From Simplicispira psychrophila DSM 11588 (GTDB lineage: Bacteria; Pseudomonadota; Gammaproteobacteria; Burkholderiales; Burkholderiaceae_C), in contig NZ_JHYS01000010.1 in the NCBI RefSeq assembly GCF_000688255.1, forward strand, positions 1-64,000: a stretch of 64,000 bases of DNA, read 5' to 3'. The position numbers and the translations under genes were made by a program. The notes below the pieces were generated by a model. It did no database searches. It had not been told where the DNA came from and saw only the letters and a program-made list of their open reading frames with translations. Position 1 is the stretch's first letter. Each line of letters starts with the position of its first letter. This document shows positions 40,970 to 51,865 of the stretch, one piece after another.

Positions 40970-41893
40970 ATGACCGCAGACCCGCAATTGGAAGAAAAGC
41001 TCGCGCTGGCCGCTGAATGGATTCGCCGCGCCTCTGGCATGGTGGTGGCAGCGGGTGCGGGCATGGGCATCGACTCGGGCATGCCGGACTTTCGCGGTGA
41101 CAACGGCTTTTGGCGCGCCTACCCGGCGCTGGGGGCCAGTGGGCTGCACTTTGAAGACATCGCCTCGCCGCGCGCCTTTGACGAGCAGCCGCGCACCGCT
41201 TGGGGCTTTTACGGCCACCGCCTGCGCCTGTACCGCGCCACCCAGCCACACGCTGGCTTTGAGCTGCTCCACCAGTGGAGCCAGCGCATGGCGCAAGGCG
41301 CCTTCGTCTTCACCAGCAACGTCGATGGGCATTTTCGCAAAGCCGGCTTTGCGCCGGCGCGCATCTACGAATACCACGGCTCCATCCACCGGCTGCAATG
41401 CACGGCCAACTGCAACGGCCATATCTGGGACGCCGCCGCCATCCACCCCCAGGTGGACGAAGCCGCCTGCCAAATGCTCGGTGATTTGCCCCGCTGCCCG
41501 GATTGCGGCGCACTGGCGCGACCGAATATCTTGATGTTTGGTGATGGCGACTGGAACAGCATGCGCAGCGACACGCAGCAAACGCGGCTGGCGCAGTGGT
41601 TAAGTAGCGCCCCAACGCCGCCGCTGGTGATAGAGATTGGCGCCGGCCGCGCCATTGCCACCGTGCGCCACTTCAGCCGGCAGATGCAGCAGCGCGGCAG
41701 CCAGCTGGTACGCATCAACCTGCACGAATCGAATATCGACAACCCCGATGCCATCGAGATTGCACTGGGGGCTAAAGAGGCGTTGCAGCGGATTCAGCAG
41801 CATTTGACAGATTGGGAATATGTGCTGCCCCCTGTGGTGTCGCGGCCGCTGCTGCCGCTGGAGTCAGTGATGACGCCGAAGCAATTGGAGTAG
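40970..41893 (+). CDS. Sir2-family NAD-dependent protein deacylase
   Basis: 307 residues. NAD-binding motif AAGAGMGIDSGMPDFRG (about 27-43), TSNVDGHF (115-122), catalytic His136 in YEYHGSIH, and a zinc module from Cys144, Cys148, Cys176 and Cys179. The first zinc pair is spaced CxxxC, not the usual CxxC, and the usual GAGIS and NIDGLH have changed to GAGMG and NVDGHF. It is longer than CobB (about 240 residues). Probably a cytoplasmic lysine deacylase. Base composition matches the flanking housekeeping genes (42 of 60 G/C at 41041-41100), so it does not seem to belong to the AT-richer DUF262 pair that starts 112 bases downstream. Confidence 0.88.
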   Translation: MTADPQLEEKLALAAEWIRRASGMVVAAGAGMGIDSGMPDFRGDNGFWRAYPALGASGLHFEDIASPRAFDEQPRTAWGFYGHRLRLYRATQPHAGFELLHQWSQRMAQGAFVFTSNVDGHFRKAGFAPARIYEYHGSIHRLQCTANCNGHIWDAAAIHPQVDEAACQMLGDLPRCPDCGALARPNILMFGDGDWNSMRSDTQQTRLAQWLSSAPTPPLVIEIGAGRAIATVRHFSRQMQQRGSQLVRINLHESNIDNPDAIEIALGAKEALQRIQQHLTDWEYVLPPVVSRPLLPLESVMTPKQLE

Positions 41894-42005
41894 CTGCCCA
41901 GATGTGTTGGCCATCGCCGCCGTCTGAATTGGTGGGTTACGCAGGGGGCGATGAATAAATCAGCTAAGCGTGCAAGATTTTTTAAATACCAAAGAGCAGC
42001 AAAAG

Positions 42006-43712
42006 ATGGACTACAAACTGGAACACAGAACCATAGGTTTTGGTATCGACTCTGTCAGTAGGAGGCCAACCACGGGCATCGAGGGGGTTTTTTTCATTCC
42101 TGCTTACCAGCGCGGCTACCGCTGGACTGAAGACGAAATCAAAAAACTGCTTGACGATATCTGGGAAACCGAAGGCAAGCCCTATAGCTTGCAACCGGTC
42201 GTTGTTAAAAAGCGGGAAGATGGTGCTTGGGAGCTGATTGACGGCCAGCAGCGGCTCACAACTCTCTGGTTGATTCTGCGTTTTATGCAGAAAGGAGATG
42301 CGCGCTATACCCTCGAATACGCAACTCGTACTGGCAGCCAGTCATATCTGGCAAGTTTGGATCCGGCGCAGGCGGACAGCAATATTGACTACTTCCACCT
42401 CCATAGAGCCCACACCACTATTGCCGACTGGTTTGAAAATAAACTGGGCGCGCAATACAAGCAATTCTTAATCGATGAAATTTTCCGGTTTCTATGCACC
42501 TCAGTGCGCGTCATCTGGTACGAGGTGCCAGCCAGCGAAAAGCCCATTCCTCTGTTTACCCGTCTAAATCAGGGGCGTATCCCTTTGACAGATGCCGAAC
42601 TCCTCAAGGCAGTGTTGCTGTCAAGCGTTGCTAAAAGCAAACCCGGACGTGAAACCGAAATCGCTGCGCAATGGGACGGCATGGAGCGCGATTTGCAGCG
42701 CACTGAGATATGGGCCTTCGTTGCGGGAAACGTACAAGACGATGATCGCTATGGCACACGCATCAGCTTGTTGTTAGACACATTGGCGCAGCAGAAAAAT
42801 CCTGTCAGCGGCACAGCACCTCGCTATCACACCTTCGATACATTACGCGAGCGAGCGGAGAGCGATAGCCTACTATTCTGGCGAGAAGTGGAGACACTGC
42901 ACGCCCAGATTCTTGGTTGGTTTGAGGATTCACGCGCATATAACAAAATCGGTTTTCTGGTGACGTGTGGCATGTCTATTGGACACATCCAGCGCTGCGC
43001 CTTAGAGAGAAATAAAAGCGCTTTTGATGTGTGGCTGATCGAGCAGATCAAAAATATGCTGAAAGTCAGTGCCGACAATCTGGATGAAGGCCTGCGCTAC
43101 GAAGGCGCCAAGGGCGACTCCAGCGCACTGCAGCAAATACTGCTGCTGTTCAACGTACAAGTCTGTCGTGAACGATTTCCGTTTGAAAAGCATGTGGGGC
43201 AAGACTGGACGTTAGAACACATCCACGCGCAGAACGCGCAAAGCCTGAACCGTGCTGAGGAGTGGAACACTTGGCTGATTGAACACCGCAAAGCTCTGGT
43301 AGCTATTCAGACGGTCAACAATGCGTCTGATATCCCGTCTTTGATCAACGAGATCGACGATGCTCTCCCAGATATTCATAACTCCCGTTTTGGTGAGCGT
43401 TTTCACGCCTTAGCGGCGCGGATACAAAAAATTCTGACTCTTGACGATGAAGGTGCTGACCACACCATCGCTAACTTGGCCTTGCTATCCCGTGGAGACA
43501 ATGCCGCTCTGAGCAACTCGGTATTCGAGGTCAAGCGGCAAAAAATATTGGCGATGGACAAGGACGGTTATTACATCCCAGCGGCAACCCGTAATGTATT
43601 CCTGAAGTACTACACCCAAGCAGATGGTCTGCACCCTCATTTTTGGGGCAGTGCGGATAAGGCGGAATATTTGCAGGAAATAAAAACTCAACTGGCTCCC
43701 TACCTGCAATGA
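42006..43712 (+). CDS. DUF262 + DUF1524 (HNH-like) protein, GmrSD-type
   Basis: 568 residues from ATG 42006 (a GTG at 41970 would add 12). N-terminal DUF262: FIPAYQRGYRWTEDEI (about 30-45) and the NTP-handling motif DGQQRLTTLW (79-88). C-terminal DUF1524: LEHIHAQNAQ (about 403), NLALLSRGDN and LSNSVFEVKR (about 484-505), the pattern of the HNH-like nuclease. Proteins of this build include the GmrSD restriction enzyme, which cleaves modified phage DNA, and the SspE family. The gene is AT-richer than its surroundings (24 of 60 G/C at 42421-42480) and is coupled to a second DUF262 gene by an ATGA overlap. I infer an acquired anti-phage pair; the target is unknown. Confidence 0.88.
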   Translation: MDYKLEHRTIGFGIDSVSRRPTTGIEGVFFIPAYQRGYRWTEDEIKKLLDDIWETEGKPYSLQPVVVKKREDGAWELIDGQQRLTTLWLILRFMQKGDARYTLEYATRTGSQSYLASLDPAQADSNIDYFHLHRAHTTIADWFENKLGAQYKQFLIDEIFRFLCTSVRVIWYEVPASEKPIPLFTRLNQGRIPLTDAELLKAVLLSSVAKSKPGRETEIAAQWDGMERDLQRTEIWAFVAGNVQDDDRYGTRISLLLDTLAQQKNPVSGTAPRYHTFDTLRERAESDSLLFWREVETLHAQILGWFEDSRAYNKIGFLVTCGMSIGHIQRCALERNKSAFDVWLIEQIKNMLKVSADNLDEGLRYEGAKGDSSALQQILLLFNVQVCRERFPFEKHVGQDWTLEHIHAQNAQSLNRAEEWNTWLIEHRKALVAIQTVNNASDIPSLINEIDDALPDIHNSRFGERFHALAARIQKILTLDDEGADHTIANLALLSRGDNAALSNSVFEVKRQKILAMDKDGYYIPAATRNVFLKYYTQADGLHPHFWGSADKAEYLQEIKTQLAPYLQ

Positions 43713-46102
43713 ATGCTCCTGCCATGACGATAGCCGCCTCGACCTCCAACGCCCCTTCGTTTCATACCAGTCTGGCCCAGCTGTTTGAACAGGCTCAAAT
43801 TCGGGCTATAGAAATCCCGCTTATCCAGCGCGACTACGCCCAAGGACGCCACAGCGTGCAGGTGGAGGAAATCCGCAAGCGTTTCATCGATAGCATGTAT
43901 GCCGCACTAGAGAGCCAAAACGGTATTGACTTGGATTTTGTATTTGGCGATGTGGTGGACGGCACTCTGTACCCTCTGGATGGCCAGCAACGCCTAACCA
44001 CCCTCTTTTTGCTGCACTGCTATCTGGCGTGGCACATCCCCGAAACCAAGAATATCAAGCAGTCTTGGCACGCCTTTAGCTACTCCACCCGCCCCGGCGG
44101 ACGGGAGTTCTGCCAGTTTCTGACCAATTGCCGTCCCGACATGGAGCAAACCACAATATCTGAGTGGCTGAAAGACCAGACCCGCTATCTGAAAGACCAG
44201 ACTCGCTATTTGCCCACTTGGAAGCACGACCCCACCATCCAAGGCATGCTGGTGATGTTGGACGCATTGCACCAGCGCTACAGCAATTCACCACCGGAAA
44301 GGCGGTACGCACACTGGGAGCGGCTGATCCATCCCACCCACGCCGCAATTCGCTTTCACTTGCTACCCGTTCAGGCGCAAAGCCAAGACACCACCCTGTA
44401 CGTGAAGATGAACTCACGGGGCAGGCCGCTGACTGATTTTGAAAACTTCAAAGCCGAACTGGAAGCACTGATGCGCGCCAATCCAGCTATCCCCAAGGAG
44501 ATGCAGGTCGGTTTTTCGCACAAAATCGACACCGATTGGACGGATCTTTTCTGGTCTTATCGAGGAAAAAGCCAAGCGATAGACGAAAAATTTATGCGCT
44601 ACTTTCGCTTTCTTGCTGAAGTGCTGGCGTGGAAAGCAGGCTGCGACATTGATCAGTCAAAAACTGACCGACAAGCGCTGACCGACTTGGCTGAATACCT
44701 CTTGAGTAACAAGGCTGCACAGGCCAGTACGCATACAGACTGGATGGTGCAAGCACTGGATATTTGGATAGAAGCTGATGCCAGCGGAATTAACCGTCGC
44801 CGCGCTATCGAGCCTATGTTCAAGCAGCTCTTTAGTCGTGCTGAGGCATCTGCTACTCAACCCTTGCGCGTTTTCAATTTCAAAGATTTTGATGAGTCTC
44901 GCATTGGTGTGGATATGCTGCACGCCTGCTGCGAGATGTATGGCACCCGCACCTGGACTCTGGCGCACACCTTGCTTTTTTACGGTGTGCTGTGCGGCTA
45001 CATAGCATCAATGCCTACGGAGGATTTCCAGCAGCGTCTGCGTCTACTGCGCAATCTGACGGAGGCATCACGGGCCGAAATTCGTGCTGGTTGGCCCAAT
45101 AACATGCCAAGTTTGCTTGCTGAAGTGGAAAGCGTCATGGCTGGAGGGCTGCTCGATGACATCAAGACCTTCAACCAAGTGCAGGTGGCTAACGAGCAGA
45201 TAAAGTGTCGCTTTTTGGCTGCCCACCCTGCACTGCAAGAAACTTTGCACCAACTGGAAGACCATGATCTGCTACGTGGCGGACTGACCGTCTTTGATTT
45301 GGATCCAGGGCAGGCAGGTACCATCTTTGAGCGCCGCGCTACACAATTCCCCCTGCTTTTCGCATCACCCTACAGCCAAGTCACCGCCGCACTGCTAACC
45401 AAAGGCCACGAAGGCCGTGGCCGGTCGCGCAATGCTGGCTATCGTCTTGCCTACTTGGGTGCTCCTCAGCAACGAGACCCATGGGAAAACCTATTTCGTG
45501 CCAGAAAAGGGGAGGATCATCCAACCTGCGCGCCTTTAATGGCTTTGCTGGACGACTTGGCTTTTGGAAAGACGCTGGAATTTGTCATAAACGATTTTTT
45601 AAACAACCTAGCCGTACCAAAAGACTGGCGCTACTACATGGTGAAGTACGAAGCGATGCGCCAAGGCTATTTAGGCAATCACGTCATCGGCCCTGGTGCT
45701 GGTTATGCAATGTGCATGCTCCAAGGTACTTCCTGTGATTTGCGTGGTTACCACTTTGATAGCTACCTTTTGGTCTTGACTGAGTTGGCAGGCCTGACTG
45801 CAGAGCAGATTGGCAATGACGATTGGCCTCGCTGTTTTACTGGCGATGGAACTGATGCACGCCACCTTAAGTTGCGCAAAAGTGGGATCAAGATTCAGTG
45901 CGTGGACGCCGGATGGCAGTTCAGTAACCTCCCGGCAGATGCCCAACAACGCCTAGTATTTGAGAGCGTAGTAAGTAAGCACCCCGGCTATCAAATTCAA
46001 AATTTGCTACACGCTGTACAGCAAAAAAATGGCATTGACACTGAAGACCGACTTGCGCTGGGTGCGCAACTGCTGCGAGAGCTGACAGTAGCAGGGCTCT
46101 AA
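43709..46102 (+). CDS. DUF262 partner protein without HNH end
   Basis: 797 residues. N-terminal DUF262 with IPLIQRDYAQGR (36-47) and DGQQRLTTLF (91-100); later VKMNSRGRPLTDFENFKAEL, the second conserved block of DUF262 proteins. The long C-terminal part shows no EHI..Q / N..LSN HNH pattern, so the nuclease function would be supplied by the upstream gene; this protein could be the sensor or NTPase half. It overlaps that gene by 4 bases. A 21-bp tandem duplication encodes KDQTRYL twice (residues 155-168). AT-rich like its partner. It ends 24 bases before a converging housekeeping gene. Confidence 0.85.
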   Translation: MNAPAMTIAASTSNAPSFHTSLAQLFEQAQIRAIEIPLIQRDYAQGRHSVQVEEIRKRFIDSMYAALESQNGIDLDFVFGDVVDGTLYPLDGQQRLTTLFLLHCYLAWHIPETKNIKQSWHAFSYSTRPGGREFCQFLTNCRPDMEQTTISEWLKDQTRYLKDQTRYLPTWKHDPTIQGMLVMLDALHQRYSNSPPERRYAHWERLIHPTHAAIRFHLLPVQAQSQDTTLYVKMNSRGRPLTDFENFKAELEALMRANPAIPKEMQVGFSHKIDTDWTDLFWSYRGKSQAIDEKFMRYFRFLAEVLAWKAGCDIDQSKTDRQALTDLAEYLLSNKAAQASTHTDWMVQALDIWIEADASGINRRRAIEPMFKQLFSRAEASATQPLRVFNFKDFDESRIGVDMLHACCEMYGTRTWTLAHTLLFYGVLCGYIASMPTEDFQQRLRLLRNLTEASRAEIRAGWPNNMPSLLAEVESVMAGGLLDDIKTFNQVQVANEQIKCRFLAAHPALQETLHQLEDHDLLRGGLTVFDLDPGQAGTIFERRATQFPLLFASPYSQVTAALLTKGHEGRGRSRNAGYRLAYLGAPQQRDPWENLFRARKGEDHPTCAPLMALLDDLAFGKTLEFVINDFLNNLAVPKDWRYYMVKYEAMRQGYLGNHVIGPGAGYAMCMLQGTSCDLRGYHFDSYLLVLTELAGLTAEQIGNDDWPRCFTGDGTDARHLKLRKSGIKIQCVDAGWQFSNLPADAQQRLVFESVVSKHPGYQIQNLLHAVQQKNGIDTEDRLALGAQLLRELTVAGL
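44168..44209 (+). repeat. in-frame 21-bp tandem duplication in DUF262 gene
   Basis: Two 21-base units (44168-44188 and 44189-44209) differ at one base (acc versus act) and encode KDQTRYL-type heptads back to back. Being a multiple of three it leaves the frame intact and may vary in copy number between strains. Confidence 0.92.
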
Positions 46103-46126
46103 TTTTGATTTTTAGCAGCATTGCCC

Positions 46127-46354
46127 TCAGCGCCGGCGCAGGATGTGGATGAACTCCTTGCCCACCGTCTGCTGCTCCACCAGCTCGTTGCCGGTCTGTT
46201 TGGCAAACGCCTGAAAATCGCGCAGCGAGCCGTTATCGGTCGCCACCACCTTGAGCAACTGGCCGCTCTCCATGCCGGCCAGCGCTTTTTTGGCTTTCAA
46301 AATAGGCAGCGGGCAGTTCAGCCCGCGCGTGTCAACTTCGGTGTGGATGTCCAT
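46127..46354 (-). CDS. TusA-family sulfur carrier
   Basis: 75 residues. The family signature is the persulfide Cys in TRGLNCPLPILKAKKAL (CPxP, about residue 14), with the two-layer fold seen in GQLLKVVATDNGSLRDFQAFAKQTGN. TusA-like proteins pass sulfur for tRNA thiolation, molybdenum cofactor or oxidation pathways. No other sulfur-relay gene is next to it apart from cysM about 700 bases upstream on the same strand. 17 bases separate it from the NUDIX gene, so they may be co-transcribed. Confidence 0.9.
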   Translation of the reverse strand: MDIHTEVDTRGLNCPLPILKAKKALAGMESGQLLKVVATDNGSLRDFQAFAKQTGNELVEQQTVGKEFIHILRRR

Positions 46355-46371
46355 GGGGTGTTCTTCAATCT

Positions 46372-46938
46372 TCAGTCTTTAAGGTCTGCATTCTCGGTGC
46401 GGAAAAAATCCACAAACTCTGGCTCAATGCCGCGTCCGCGCAACCAATCGGCCAGCGCGTAGCCGGTGCCCGCCGGCCAGCATTGCAAGCGCTCGGGCCG
46501 CACCAAGCGGTAATCGACCAGCTCGGGCGACAGCTGCACGGTGCCGCGGGCCAACGTGTGGAAGGCAATGATGACTTGGTTCATGCGCTGGAAGTCGTAG
46601 ACGCCAATCAGTTGCAGCGCGCTGATGTCCACGTCCAGGCTGGTTTCTTCCTTGATCTCGCGCGCAATGCCCTCTTGCGGCGTTTCGCCCGCTTCCATGA
46701 AGCCGGTGATCAGGCCAAACGCTGGCATCTTCCAAGCGGCATTGCGCGCCAGCAGAATGCGCCCGTCCAACTCGACCACCGCCGCCAGCACCGGCGTCGG
46801 GTTGTTCCAGTGCGTCCAACCACAGGCCGGGCAGCGCAGGCGCTCGACATCGCCGCTGTCCTCGGCCTGCGTGATCAGCGCCAACGGCGTGGCGCAGTGG
46901 GTGCAAAAGCGGGTTTGGTAAGCTAAAGCGTCATTCAT
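46372..46938 (-). CDS. NUDIX hydrolase with N-terminal zinc ribbon
   Basis: 188 residues. A zinc ribbon comes first (FCTHCATPL and RCPACGW, two CxxC pairs), then the NUDIX box GFMEAGETPQEGIAREIKEE, which is complete except that Ser replaces the usual Gly near its end (EETSLD). The zinc ribbon plus NUDIX order recalls NudC-type NAD(H)/NAD-cap pyrophosphatases, but the protein is shorter and lacks the N-terminal domain of NudC, so the substrate is open. A dispersed repeat begins five bases upstream of its start codon. Confidence 0.88.
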   Translation of the reverse strand: MNDALAYQTRFCTHCATPLALITQAEDSGDVERLRCPACGWTHWNNPTPVLAAVVELDGRILLARNAAWKMPAFGLITGFMEAGETPQEGIAREIKEETSLDVDISALQLIGVYDFQRMNQVIIAFHTLARGTVQLSPELVDYRLVRPERLQCWPAGTGYALADWLRGRGIEPEFVDFFRTENADLKD

Positions 46939-46942
46939 ATAC

Positions 46943-47001
46943 TATGAATTTAATAGCTGTTAGCGCATATATCTAAAGGGCTAGAGGCATATTTGGCCAT
47001 T
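46943..47001 (+). repeat. dispersed ~60-bp repeat, NUDIX-cysM intergenic copy
   Basis: Reads tatgaatttaatagctgtta, then gcgcatatatctaaagggct and agaggcatatttggcc. This is the best-preserved copy and resembles a repeat I recall from Comamonadaceae genomes. It fills almost the whole gap between the NUDIX start and the cysM stop, so cysM to NUDIX read-through would transcribe it. Confidence 0.85.
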
Positions 47002-47953: not shown

Positions 47954-48038
47954 GCCCGGGTGGTGAAATTGGTAGACGCAGGGGACTCAAAATCCCCCTC
48001 CGAAAGGAGTGCCGGTTCGATTCCGGCCCCGGGCACCA
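47954..48038 (+). tRNA. tRNA-Leu (anticodon CAA)
   Basis: 85 bases including the encoded CCA end. Acceptor stem gcccggg/cccgggc, D-arm with tggtgaaattggtagacgca, anticodon stem gggga/tccc c with loop ctcaaaa, so the anticodon is CAA (decodes UUG). A long variable arm (ctccgaaaggagtg) confirms the leucine type II structure, and gttcgattc is the T loop. A terminator follows. The 3' ends of leucine tRNA genes are common integration sites; see the findings. Confidence 0.97.
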
Positions 48039-48736: not shown

Positions 48737-51700
48737 CTATGCCCCGCGCAACACGCTGAACTCCCGAAACCGCCGCGCGGGCAGCGGGGTTGTCAACTGC
48801 CAGACGATATTCATCGGACGGGCACCAGTGCTCTCCACCAAGTGCACCGGTCCGCAGGCAATGAACGGCGATTTGCGGTCGGCGCGGACAAATAGCTGGA
48901 AGCGCCAGCCGTTGCCGGGGCTGTTCAGGTATTGCTGACCGATGTGCGTTTCTGGCGCAGCGCTGTTCTGGCTTTGCCAGTGAAAGCGCGATGGGCTCAT
49001 GGCGTAGTCGTGATAGTTCACCGTCTCGTGGTAGCCGCTGCTTTTATCCAGCGTGACAAACATCAGTTCAATGCGCTGGGCTTTCAGGCGCAGCACGCCT
49101 TCGCGCGCGGCGGGTCGGGCGACATCCGTCAGCCAGCCGACGGCGGTTTGAATTTCGCGTGAGCTGTATTGGCCATGCAACAGCAGCGGTGTGGCTTCCA
49201 ACCCCGGCAGCGGCACCGATGGCAGGGTGCTGCGCACTTCCAACACGTCGGCGAGTTCGCGCAGTTCGGTGATGGCGTTCGGATTGCTTCCCAGGCGCGT
49301 CAGAAATGGCACGGGGCCGCCGACTTGGCTGCTGGTGCCGTCCACTTGGTAGGCCAGCATTTGCACCAGAGCGGCGTCATGGGAGCTCAAAGACGTATGG
49401 GGTGCAGCGGCGCGTTCAGCACCCAGGCGCAGGGCGTCAATCTGGTTTGGTGCGTCGCGGTGGCACAGGCTGGCAAAGCGCCGAGAAAAATAGGCTTCCT
49501 CGGGCCCTGGCTCAGACACCAGCAGGCCCGCATCGCGGCGCAGTGCGGACCAACCTGCGCGCCCGCTATCGCGGTAGATGTCGGATAGCTCCAGCCCTTG
49601 CTCGTGCAGAAATTCCGCCAAAACCGGCGGCTTACCTTGCAGCGCAGTCAGGGCCTGCAATTCGCGTTGCAGGTTGCGCCAGCCTTGGTTCACATGGCTT
49701 TTCAGATGGGCCAGCACGCGCTGGCGTACTTGGTGCTGTAGCTGGATATGGCAGCCGGCAGGCAGGGCCGAAAACTCGTGCTCCAGGCTGTCAATCAACA
49801 CGCGCCGCGATTGCCCGGTGATGCTGGAGAGCAACCGGTCGTAGCGAAATGCGGCGTTGTGCTGGCCGACAAAATCCAGCACCAAACAGCTTTCTTTGTT
49901 CGCGCTCAAGCGCAGCCCGCGGCCCAGTTGCTGCTGGAACAGCAGGGCGCTTTGCGTTGGGCGCAGCAGCAGCAAGGTGTCTACCGTCGGCAGGTCAATA
50001 CCTTCATTGAACAAATCCACGGTGACCAGCGCACACAGTTCGCCCGACTCCAGCCGCTGGCGCGTACGGGTGCGCTCGTCGCTGGCGGTGTTGCCGTGCA
50101 CGCACGCGGCGGGCAGGCCAGCGCGGCACAGAAAGTCGGCCATGAAAAGGGCGTGCTCCACCGACACGCAAAACACCAGCGCCCGGCTGGCGCGCGGGTT
50201 GGCGCTCAGGCGCGCCCATTCGCGCAGCACCAGCTTGGCACGCACATCGTTGTTGCTGACCAAGTTGGCGACGGCCTGCTGCTCGCCGACGCGGTTCCAC
50301 GGCACGGCAGAAAAGTCGGTCGCGTCGTCGCAGGCGTAGTACTCAAACGGTGCCAGCAGTTGCAAATCCAGCGCATCCCACAGGCGCAGTTCGACTGCCG
50401 GGCTACCGTCGGGCCGTTGGTTGAAATAGCGGTGGATCGGCTGGCCGTCGGTGCGCTCGGGCGTGGCGGTCAGGCCCAGCAAAATCGTTGGCTGGATCGC
50501 CGTGGCAAGGGCGTCGAAGCGGTGGCTGGCAATGCGGTGGCATTCGTCCATCACCACTGTGTGCCAGTAGTCCGCGCCCAAAGTGTCCAGCAGCCGGCGC
50601 GTGCTCAGCGTGTCAATAGTGGCGAAAAGGTGGTTGTGGTTGTCGGCTTGGTGGTGGCCGCTGAGCAGCTGGCCGAAGCTGCCGTCGCGCAGCACTTCGC
50701 GGTAGGTGCGCAGGGCTTGTTGCAGGATTTCGATGCGGTGCGCTACGAACAGCAGGCGCGGCGGGTGTCCCAGTTGTTGGCAGCTTCGGCGGTAGTCGAA
50801 GGCGGCCACCACGGTTTTGCCGGTGCCGGTCGCGGCCACCAGCAGGTTGCGCATGCGGCCATGGGCGCGCTCGTTGGCCAGTTGCTCCAGCATGTCTTGC
50901 TGGTAGGTTTTGGGCTGGAGCTCAAAGAACGACGTCAGGCTGCTGGACTGCCCCAACTGTCCCGACTCGCGGCCCAAGGCTTGCTCCAGCGCGGTGCGGT
51001 GCTCGGTATTGGCTGGGTCGTAATGCTCAAATTCCGGGTCTTCCCACAAGGTGTCGAAGTGCGCAATGGCGCGGGTGTAGAGCTCGCCTTGCGTGCGTTC
51101 GGTGAATTTCACCGTCCATTCCAGGCCACCGGCCAGCGCTGCGCCGGTCAGGTTGGCACTGCCGACATAAGCTGAACCAAACCCCGTAGCGCGCCGGAAT
51201 ATCCAAGCTTTGGCGTGCAACCGCGTGCGGCGTCCATCGAGTGACACACGCACTTCGCAGCCGGGCAGGCTGGCGAGTTCATGGACTGCGGCGGCGTCGG
51301 TCGCACCGATGTAGGTGGTGGTCAGCACGCGCAGCCGTACCGGTGGTTTGCCGTCAGCCCCCACAGCGGTGATGCGCGTGAGCACGTCGCGCAGCTTGCG
51401 CACGCCCGACACGGTGATGAAGCTGACCAAAATATCCACCTGCCCGACGGCGCTCAGCTCGCGGCGCAGTTCGCTCAGCAGCGACGGCGTGCCTTTGCCG
51501 GCCGTGAACAGCCACGGCGTCGCCAAGCCGGTCTGCGGCGCCTCGGGGTGTACGCCGTGGTGCAACACCGATGTCAACACGCGCGGCGGGACAGCAATCA
51601 GGTCCAGCACTTCGGCCGACTCAGGCGCCAGCCGGCGGCGCAACTCGGTCAGCAGGCCATTGACCAGCGCCAGCTGCGGCTCTATCTGGCCGCCATCTGC

Positions 51701-51865
51701 CAAGTCATTGAGCACACCGGCCAGCTGGCGGTGCAGCACTTCGGCCAAGCGTGCGCTGTCGGCAATACCAAGAGGGTGAACTTGGCTGGCCGCTGCATCC
51801 AGCGCTGTGTGCGCGCGCTCAGTGAGCAAAAGGTCATAGAAGCCCGAAGGCAGTGCACTGGTCAA
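48737..51865 (-). CDS. PLD nuclease-DEAH helicase fusion protein
   Basis: 1042 residues. Order: an N-terminal helical part, a PLD-type nuclease half-site (HAKAW about residue 217 and GSANLTGAAL about 235: HxK...N), then an SF2 helicase with Walker A ATGTGKTVVA (about 345), VMDECHRIASH, GLTATPERTDG and the motif VI block QQQLGRGLRLS, and a long C-terminal region resembling DUF3427 of similar fusions. Such PLD-helicase proteins are widespread in defence islands and beside restriction genes; the specific function is not established. Base composition is like the host genes, unlike the DUF262 pair. It reads towards the tRNA-Leu side and is not in an operon with a methylase. Confidence 0.87.
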   Translation of the reverse strand: MTSALPSGFYDLLLTERAHTALDAAASQVHPLGIADSARLAEVLHRQLAGVLNDLADGGQIEPQLALVNGLLTELRRRLAPESAEVLDLIAVPPRVLTSVLHHGVHPEAPQTGLATPWLFTAGKGTPSLLSELRRELSAVGQVDILVSFITVSGVRKLRDVLTRITAVGADGKPPVRLRVLTTTYIGATDAAAVHELASLPGCEVRVSLDGRRTRLHAKAWIFRRATGFGSAYVGSANLTGAALAGGLEWTVKFTERTQGELYTRAIAHFDTLWEDPEFEHYDPANTEHRTALEQALGRESGQLGQSSSLTSFFELQPKTYQQDMLEQLANERAHGRMRNLLVAATGTGKTVVAAFDYRRSCQQLGHPPRLLFVAHRIEILQQALRTYREVLRDGSFGQLLSGHHQADNHNHLFATIDTLSTRRLLDTLGADYWHTVVMDECHRIASHRFDALATAIQPTILLGLTATPERTDGQPIHRYFNQRPDGSPAVELRLWDALDLQLLAPFEYYACDDATDFSAVPWNRVGEQQAVANLVSNNDVRAKLVLREWARLSANPRASRALVFCVSVEHALFMADFLCRAGLPAACVHGNTASDERTRTRQRLESGELCALVTVDLFNEGIDLPTVDTLLLLRPTQSALLFQQQLGRGLRLSANKESCLVLDFVGQHNAAFRYDRLLSSITGQSRRVLIDSLEHEFSALPAGCHIQLQHQVRQRVLAHLKSHVNQGWRNLQRELQALTALQGKPPVLAEFLHEQGLELSDIYRDSGRAGWSALRRDAGLLVSEPGPEEAYFSRRFASLCHRDAPNQIDALRLGAERAAAPHTSLSSHDAALVQMLAYQVDGTSSQVGGPVPFLTRLGSNPNAITELRELADVLEVRSTLPSVPLPGLEATPLLLHGQYSSREIQTAVGWLTDVARPAAREGVLRLKAQRIELMFVTLDKSSGYHETVNYHDYAMSPSRFHWQSQNSAAPETHIGQQYLNSPGNGWRFQLFVRADRKSPFIACGPVHLVESTGARPMNIVWQLTTPLPARRFREFSVLRGA

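Follow-up and report, generated by a model that had tools for sequence, protein, structure and literature searches.

GrwAB, encoded in VSP-II of Vibrio cholerae, is a Type IV (modification-dependent) restriction system made up of two proteins and acts on phages with hypermodified bases (PMC12137116). Both of its proteins are required, and the substitutions R81A, H431A, N521A and N530A in GrwA as well as R86A in GrwB abolish activity. It restricts Queuovirinae, Tevenvirinae and some Markadamsvirinae, escapers of phage Bas24 bear changes in DpdA, and the system works in E. coli with no phosphorothioation or methylation genes supplied. GrwAB occurs in about 1% of the genomes examined (471 hits; PMC12137116 for all of the above). 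Here, we describe two adjacent DUF262 genes, A and B, in a stretch of 64,000 nucleotides from Simplicispira psychrophila DSM 11588 (contig NZ_JHYS01000010.1), the whole of which we call the window. Judged by its sequence features, the pair very probably belongs to the GrwAB kind of Type IV restriction systems, which consist of two proteins and depend on DNA modification.

A preliminary description of the window had seen in the pair a candidate anti-phage system that could be an uncharacterised two-component nuclease. The nuclease role holds up well and the pair is probably directed against phages, but "uncharacterised" does not hold: TgvAB (PMC11411939), GrwAB (PMC12137116) and GmrS1/GmrSD2 (PMC12373910) are published, phage-tested systems with the nuclease in one partner. 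It is thus the kind of system that has been named and characterised (GrwAB, 2025), and not the present copy. A wholly new system was rejected, because published GrwAB fits.

Architecture and conserved residues of the pair

The region 42006-46102 had been described as a coupled two-gene DUF262 unit, and this is borne out: both reading frames are open, intact and of full length, and an ATGA is common to the stop of A and the start of B, through which the two genes are presumably translationally coupled. Gene A begins with an ATG, an alternative GTG at 41970 adding 12 residues. Pfam places GmrSD_N (PF03235) in both proteins (A, residues 27-204, E value 9e-31; B, residues 22-251, 5e-20) and GmrSD_C (PF07510) in A only, as a short piece at residues 485-514 (E value 1e-5; 25.7 bits against a cut-off of 23), so that a DUF1524-type end in the first protein alone is likewise upheld. 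In B, Pfam found no nuclease domain, its C-terminal part giving only a sub-threshold DUF6388 (16.6 bits, cut-off 25), and NCBIfam gave neither protein a match close to its cut-off. When the two families were compared profile against profile, the likeness was confined to the DUF262 part, in keeping with the earlier view of two separate DUF262 proteins unlike each other.

A carries Q35 R36, DGQQR at 79-83, F184xxxN188, E404-H405, N490 and N499. We aligned the window's proteins with those of 78 other loci (alignments A4 and A5). Of the 91 loci L010-L100 of the survey below, 80 had passed a filter on length and absence of stops; L049, whose score is close to that of L048, and L093 were then removed by hand, and split or cut genes were not included. 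In A, R83, F184, N188, E404, H405, N490 and N499 are invariant in all 79 aligned proteins, and Q35 R36 in all 76 rows with letters there. By strict patterns, 86 of 104 frames scoring as A carry all three motifs together. The remaining 18 are mostly fragments, strict EHI[HT] being missing in five long ones (L017, L094, L098, L099 and L100) and the strict asparagine string in L025; those among them that were aligned (L017, L025, L094, L098, L100) keep the single A residues. In B, QR at 40-41 and DGQQR at 91-95 are kept in 79/79, and so are D274, W277, D292, R445, N449, E496, K499, E517 and G524 in the C-terminal part, which were not selected for.

From motifs and spacing we infer that R81, H431, N521 and N530 of GrwA and R86 of GrwB have their counterparts here in R83, H405, N490, N499 and R95. 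The distances within A (R-H 316-364 with a median of 330, H-N 75-92, N-N 9 in all 79 proteins) enclose the published GrwA spacings of 350, 90 and 9, R-H towards the upper end; R-H falls within 340-360 in 9/79 and H-N is exactly 90 in 10/79. None of the 79 copies has the exact published GrwA spacing, the nearest being L040 (348/90 vs 350/90). The arginine of B lies at positions 74-101 in the family, that of published GrwB at 86.

Features of the DUF262 locus and the block in which it lies
Feature	Position	Strand	Description	Basis
Gene A (GrwA-like)	42006..43712	+	568 residues; DUF262/GmrSD_N, helical linker, C-terminal DUF1524 His-Me nuclease	Pfam, residues, AlphaFold2, PDB folds
Gene B (GrwB-like)	43709..46102	+	797 residues; DUF262/GmrSD_N plus long C-terminal part, no nuclease domain	Pfam, residues, AlphaFold2, Foldseek
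ATGA stop/start overlap of A and B	43709..43712	+		Sequence
SIR2-family gene	40970..41893	+	Shares the block with the pair, probably outside the system	Pfam SIR2, E value 5e-21
Block missing from the galU-tusA/NUDIX junction of eight congeners	~40870..~46123	.	Holds the SIR2, grwA-like and grwB-like genes	Gap lengths and BLAST boundaries, ends approximate

Single-chain AlphaFold2 models were confident, with a pLDDT (predicted local distance difference test) of 92.3 for A and 91.0 for B. Compared with PDB structures, the fold of A matches DndI (E value 7e-8), SspE (three entries, 1.5e-5 to 7e-5) and, weakly, BrxU (4e-3), the rest being chance-like. With the fold of B, Foldseek returned three SspE chains alone under an E value of 0.001, but because these have a template-modelling (TM) score below 0.25 and a root-mean-square deviation of 17-22 Å, the C-terminal part of B is without a meaningful fold match. 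By sequence, A finds SspE and other DUF262 proteins in the PDB, over its DUF262 part, and B finds one weak match (E value 0.0013). A Foldseek search of BFVD found two DUF262 proteins below 0.001 and no others; in PHROGs, A matched four families, all of unknown function, and B none.

That A resembles DndI and SspE before BrxU, and that the sole PDB matches of B under 0.001 are SspE chains, raises the question whether A and B, as a relative of GmrSD in two proteins, sense a signal that is not a hypermodified phage base, for example a phosphorothioate or other self mark of the host, as SspE and DndI do. Both of these are tied to phosphorothioate. However, neither phosphorothioation genes, which would be expected alongside in an Ssp system, nor methylation genes were found among the 13 other window products covered by Pfam (the SIR2 gene, a gene at 48737 and ten downstream genes among them), the rest of the genome not having been searched for them; the earlier remark that no methylase or phosphorothioate gene lies nearby holds for these products and is not shown for every gene of the window. 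Since published GrwAB is also active with no such genes supplied, we regard a self-mark sensor as improbable and prefer a GrwAB-type restriction pair.

Occurrence, insertion site and neighbours

As had been suggested, the gene pair was surveyed in other genomes. An alignment (A1) of B and seven plasmid relatives served for a scan of GTDB genomes, where at least 592 stretches fit a pattern and at least 570 encode a relative; the best 80 were retained. Together with 11 viral-contig loci from a scan of IMG/VR, 8 plasmids taken of 15 matching records, and the window itself, this makes 100 loci, every one found via B. In all 100, the B-like gene is preceded, on its own strand, by an A-like gene just upstream. 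The start nearest to the stop of A falls within 30 bases of it in 98/100, and an overlap of 4 bases is seen most often (46/100, window included), though choosing the nearest start biases the gaps towards small values. Contig ends cut A in L019, L041, L083 and L084; A is split into frames in L002, L044, L059 and L072, and B in L004 and L097. The pair is interrupted by an IS3 transposase gene in two plasmids of Paenarthrobacter; this gene lies between A and B in L004 (3659-4678) and, by annotation, inside the B match in H6.

By record title, the hosts include Polaromonas, Rhodocyclus, Pseudomonas, Corallococcus, Rhodococcus, Prevotella and Butyrivibrio, among others, genera which we take to belong to several phyla. 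The closest among the matches listed come from a Polaromonas metagenome-assembled genome, Extensimonas and Rhodocyclus, with identities of 58-62% for A and 53-55% for B. An order-level sample contained 5 matches in 399 genomes at an E value of 1e-30, own genome counted. In 369 genomes sampled from the class of a Pseudomonas relative, seven matched at 0.001; the matches in G040, G084 and G241 were strong, and the GrwAB reference was not recognisable among the seven. A tblastn search with B gave no match at 1e-5 in 50,697 phage records; the pair was therefore rejected as cargo of sequenced phages, though 11 IMG/VR contigs carry it.

The base composition of the pair departs from that of its surroundings. 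The guanine plus cytosine (GC) content is 50.8% in A and 52.9% in B, as compared to 64.1% in the SIR2 gene and 64.5% in galU, and at third positions 57-58% in the pair vs 79-80% in the other two genes. Among the 64 blocks of 1 kb in the window, the four at 42001-46000 have the lowest GC (block 48001 ties with the fourth to three digits), while blocks outside 41001-47000 average 62.3%. The G/C counts quoted earlier are exact (24/60 at 42421-42480, 42/60 at 41041-41100). The label AT-rich is apt in a relative sense only, the pair being lowest in GC within the window.

The block is also missing from related genomes. From galU to the NUDIX gene (identified by Pfam), with a putative tusA between them, the distance is 310-480 bp in eight congeners (G001, G006, G011, G012, G013, G016, G017, G021) and 5499 bp here; the names galU, tusA, valS and cysM are presumed by us from the translations. 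Low GC and a junction that is empty in eight congeners together support the lateral acquisition suggested before. Other congeners have other inserts at galU. Those of G003, G018 and G019 measure 861-1645 bp, and that of G009 (4.8 kb) contains two genes for chemotaxis receptors. The inserts of G023 and G022 reach about 12 and 13 kb, and in them we identified an AMP-binding enzyme and a LuxR-type regulator. In G010, galU is followed by a SIR2 relative and then a DUF262 gene, whose best PADLOC score, over the DUF262 part, is to HEC-05; in G412, galU and a SIR2 relative are followed by a DUF2779 gene. In both, the far side of the insert lies past the contig end. The galU-tusA/NUDIX junction is thus a general, variable insertion spot in which restriction-like genes are sometimes found. 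For the pair, the own genome was the sole match among 40 genomes (own and 23 congeners included).

Foreign composition and presence in 0 of 23 congeners would also suit a decayed or silent island remnant with no present function, and broken relatives exist (an IS3 gene between A and B in L004; A in two frames in the four loci named above). Against this, both frames are full length here and the residues essential in GrwAB have counterparts, and we find a functionless remnant scarcely credible as compared to a working restriction pair.

The SIR2 gene begs a further question. It ends 112 bp before the ATG of A, on the same strand and in the same block, and a relative (57% and 65% identity) follows galU in two congeners too, such that a three-gene system could be envisaged in which the DUF262 pair triggers an upstream SIR2 effector. 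However, SIR2 relatives above 50% identity were found in only 2 of 25 congeners (G010, G412; other matches about 30%), both beside galU but with different next genes, a single DUF262 gene in one and DUF2779 in the other. The composition of the SIR2 gene is host-like, unlike that of the pair. A SIR2 relative lies near just 1 of the 100 pair loci, on which ground a SIR2-containing system was rejected; we hold it to be highly improbable, and take A and B alone as the unit.

A Type IV restriction-like gene, classed by PADLOC score, lies 2.6 kb downstream of the pair. This gene (48737-51865, minus strand), just past a tRNA-Leu (47954-48038), encodes a protein of 1042 residues that combines PLD, ResIII helicase and DUF3427 domains and scores as mREase_IV in PADLOC (PDLC03659, E value 3e-191); it probably is a second, separate restriction enzyme. 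In the Rhodocyclus locus (L011), the pair has two relatives of this DUF3427 gene to one side of it, and to the opposite side a third with a weaker score. A gene for a WYL-domain regulator lies upstream of the pair in L006 and L009 (annotated) and in L017 (PADLOC); in the window, the next gene upstream is SIR2. An IetA-like gene also flanks the pair in L017. PADLOC was run on 10 of the 50 flanking frames listed for seven relatives, and 5 of these 10 proteins had no match at 1e-10.

Proposed mechanism and described systems

Several points weigh against assigning the pair to the GrwAB kind. GmrSD_C spans just 30 residues of A by Pfam, and the TM-scores of the fold matches of A are low (0.20-0.28), whole chains superposing poorly. 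In the PADLOC search (2023) proposed for the pair, A scores in part, mainly around DUF262, and B very weakly. An FxxxN motif is described for GrwB (PMC12137116), whereas at that place B has YxxxN (Y231, N235; Y in 78/79, F in 1/79). The conservation of QR and DGQQR in B is partly circular, as both lie within the scan patterns. Membership was judged by features and by the published residue numbers of GrwA and GrwB of V. cholerae, and protection by the present copy is read across from GrwAB. Finally, genes unrelated to defence occupy this spot in congeners, and the site by itself is no proof of defence.

If the pair does work as GrwAB, A and B would be made together and act as a complex. Their DUF262 domains, carrying DGQQR, would bind and hydrolyse nucleotide and may detect hypermodified bases (e.g., glucosylated hydroxymethylcytosine or 7-deazaguanine) in incoming phage DNA; detection would then release or position the C-terminal His-Me nuclease of A, such that the phage DNA is cut and the cell presumably protected. 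B, which has no nuclease domain of its own, most likely would add recognition, assembly or protection from phage inhibitors. Its C-terminal two thirds (residues ~260-797) hold residues that are invariant in 79/79, with R445, N449, E496, K499 and E517 among them, yet neither Pfam, PADLOC and PHROGs nor the sequences and folds of the PDB gave a confident match beyond DUF262. It is conceivable, though doubtful, that they form an undescribed module, either a reader of the recognised modification or a second catalytic centre, which would make the pair a two-key enzyme with recognition and cutting in different proteins.

Together with its insertion site, the locus is a further, well-preserved example for an emerging family of Type IV restriction systems built from two proteins. 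As the alignments show, A and B remain paired in several phyla; the alignments also name residues of B for study. The present copy could help to address why GmrSD-like nucleases come in obligate pairs.

Among described systems, GmrSD, BrxU (equated with HEC-05 in PMC11411939), HEC-06, SspE and DndI are described as single-protein nucleases (PMC12137116). A shares their plan of DUF262 plus a His-Me nuclease, and its predicted fold matches DndI, SspE and, weakly, BrxU; a second DUF262 gene lies beside A in 100/100 loci, all located through B. DUF262 genes are enriched beside GmrSD genes (PMC4619093). The GmrS1/GmrSD2 doublet of E. coli ECOR17, both members of which are needed against T-even phages, is likewise a two-protein DUF262 system with the nuclease in one partner; it differs in that the nuclease apparently is the second gene, with E582-H583 in its active site, and the partner is described as a ParB_n domain only (PMC12373910). 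TgvAB, from VPI-2 of V. cholerae, also consists of two DUF262 proteins, both needed, one of which has DUF1524, and it acts on Tevenvirinae. However, its nuclease protein TgvB apparently is the second gene by locus numbers, and it lies inside a Type I restriction-modification operon; H571 and N602 of TgvB are 31 residues apart, as compared to 75-92 between H and N in the A family, N602 being unmatched to a particular motif asparagine (PMC11411939). TgvA is distinct from GrwB apart from DUF262 (PMC12137116), and GrwB is set apart from TgvA by its extended C-terminus (PMC12409362). As order, spacing and partner differ, the nuclease here coming first and the partner having 797 residues, a TgvAB-type pair was rejected.

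The own genome does hold a second DUF262 pair (G000:C1:299851-301664; L102, L104), in which a 488-residue protein with DUF262 and DUF7834 is followed by a DUF262/GmrSD_C gene in pieces and in different frames. Its nuclease-second order recalls TgvAB or the ECOR17 doublet, and the nuclease gene looks broken or misassembled.

The comparison with GrwAB comes out differently. The host is another one, and the published copy adjoins a Shedu gene while the present one occupies the galU-tusA spot. The likeness lies in the gene order, in a first protein with DUF262 and DUF1524, in a second with DUF262 and a long, unknown C-terminal part, in QR and DGQQR in both proteins, in FxxxN and the nuclease H, N and N in the first, and in a published motif spacing that falls within the range of the window's family.

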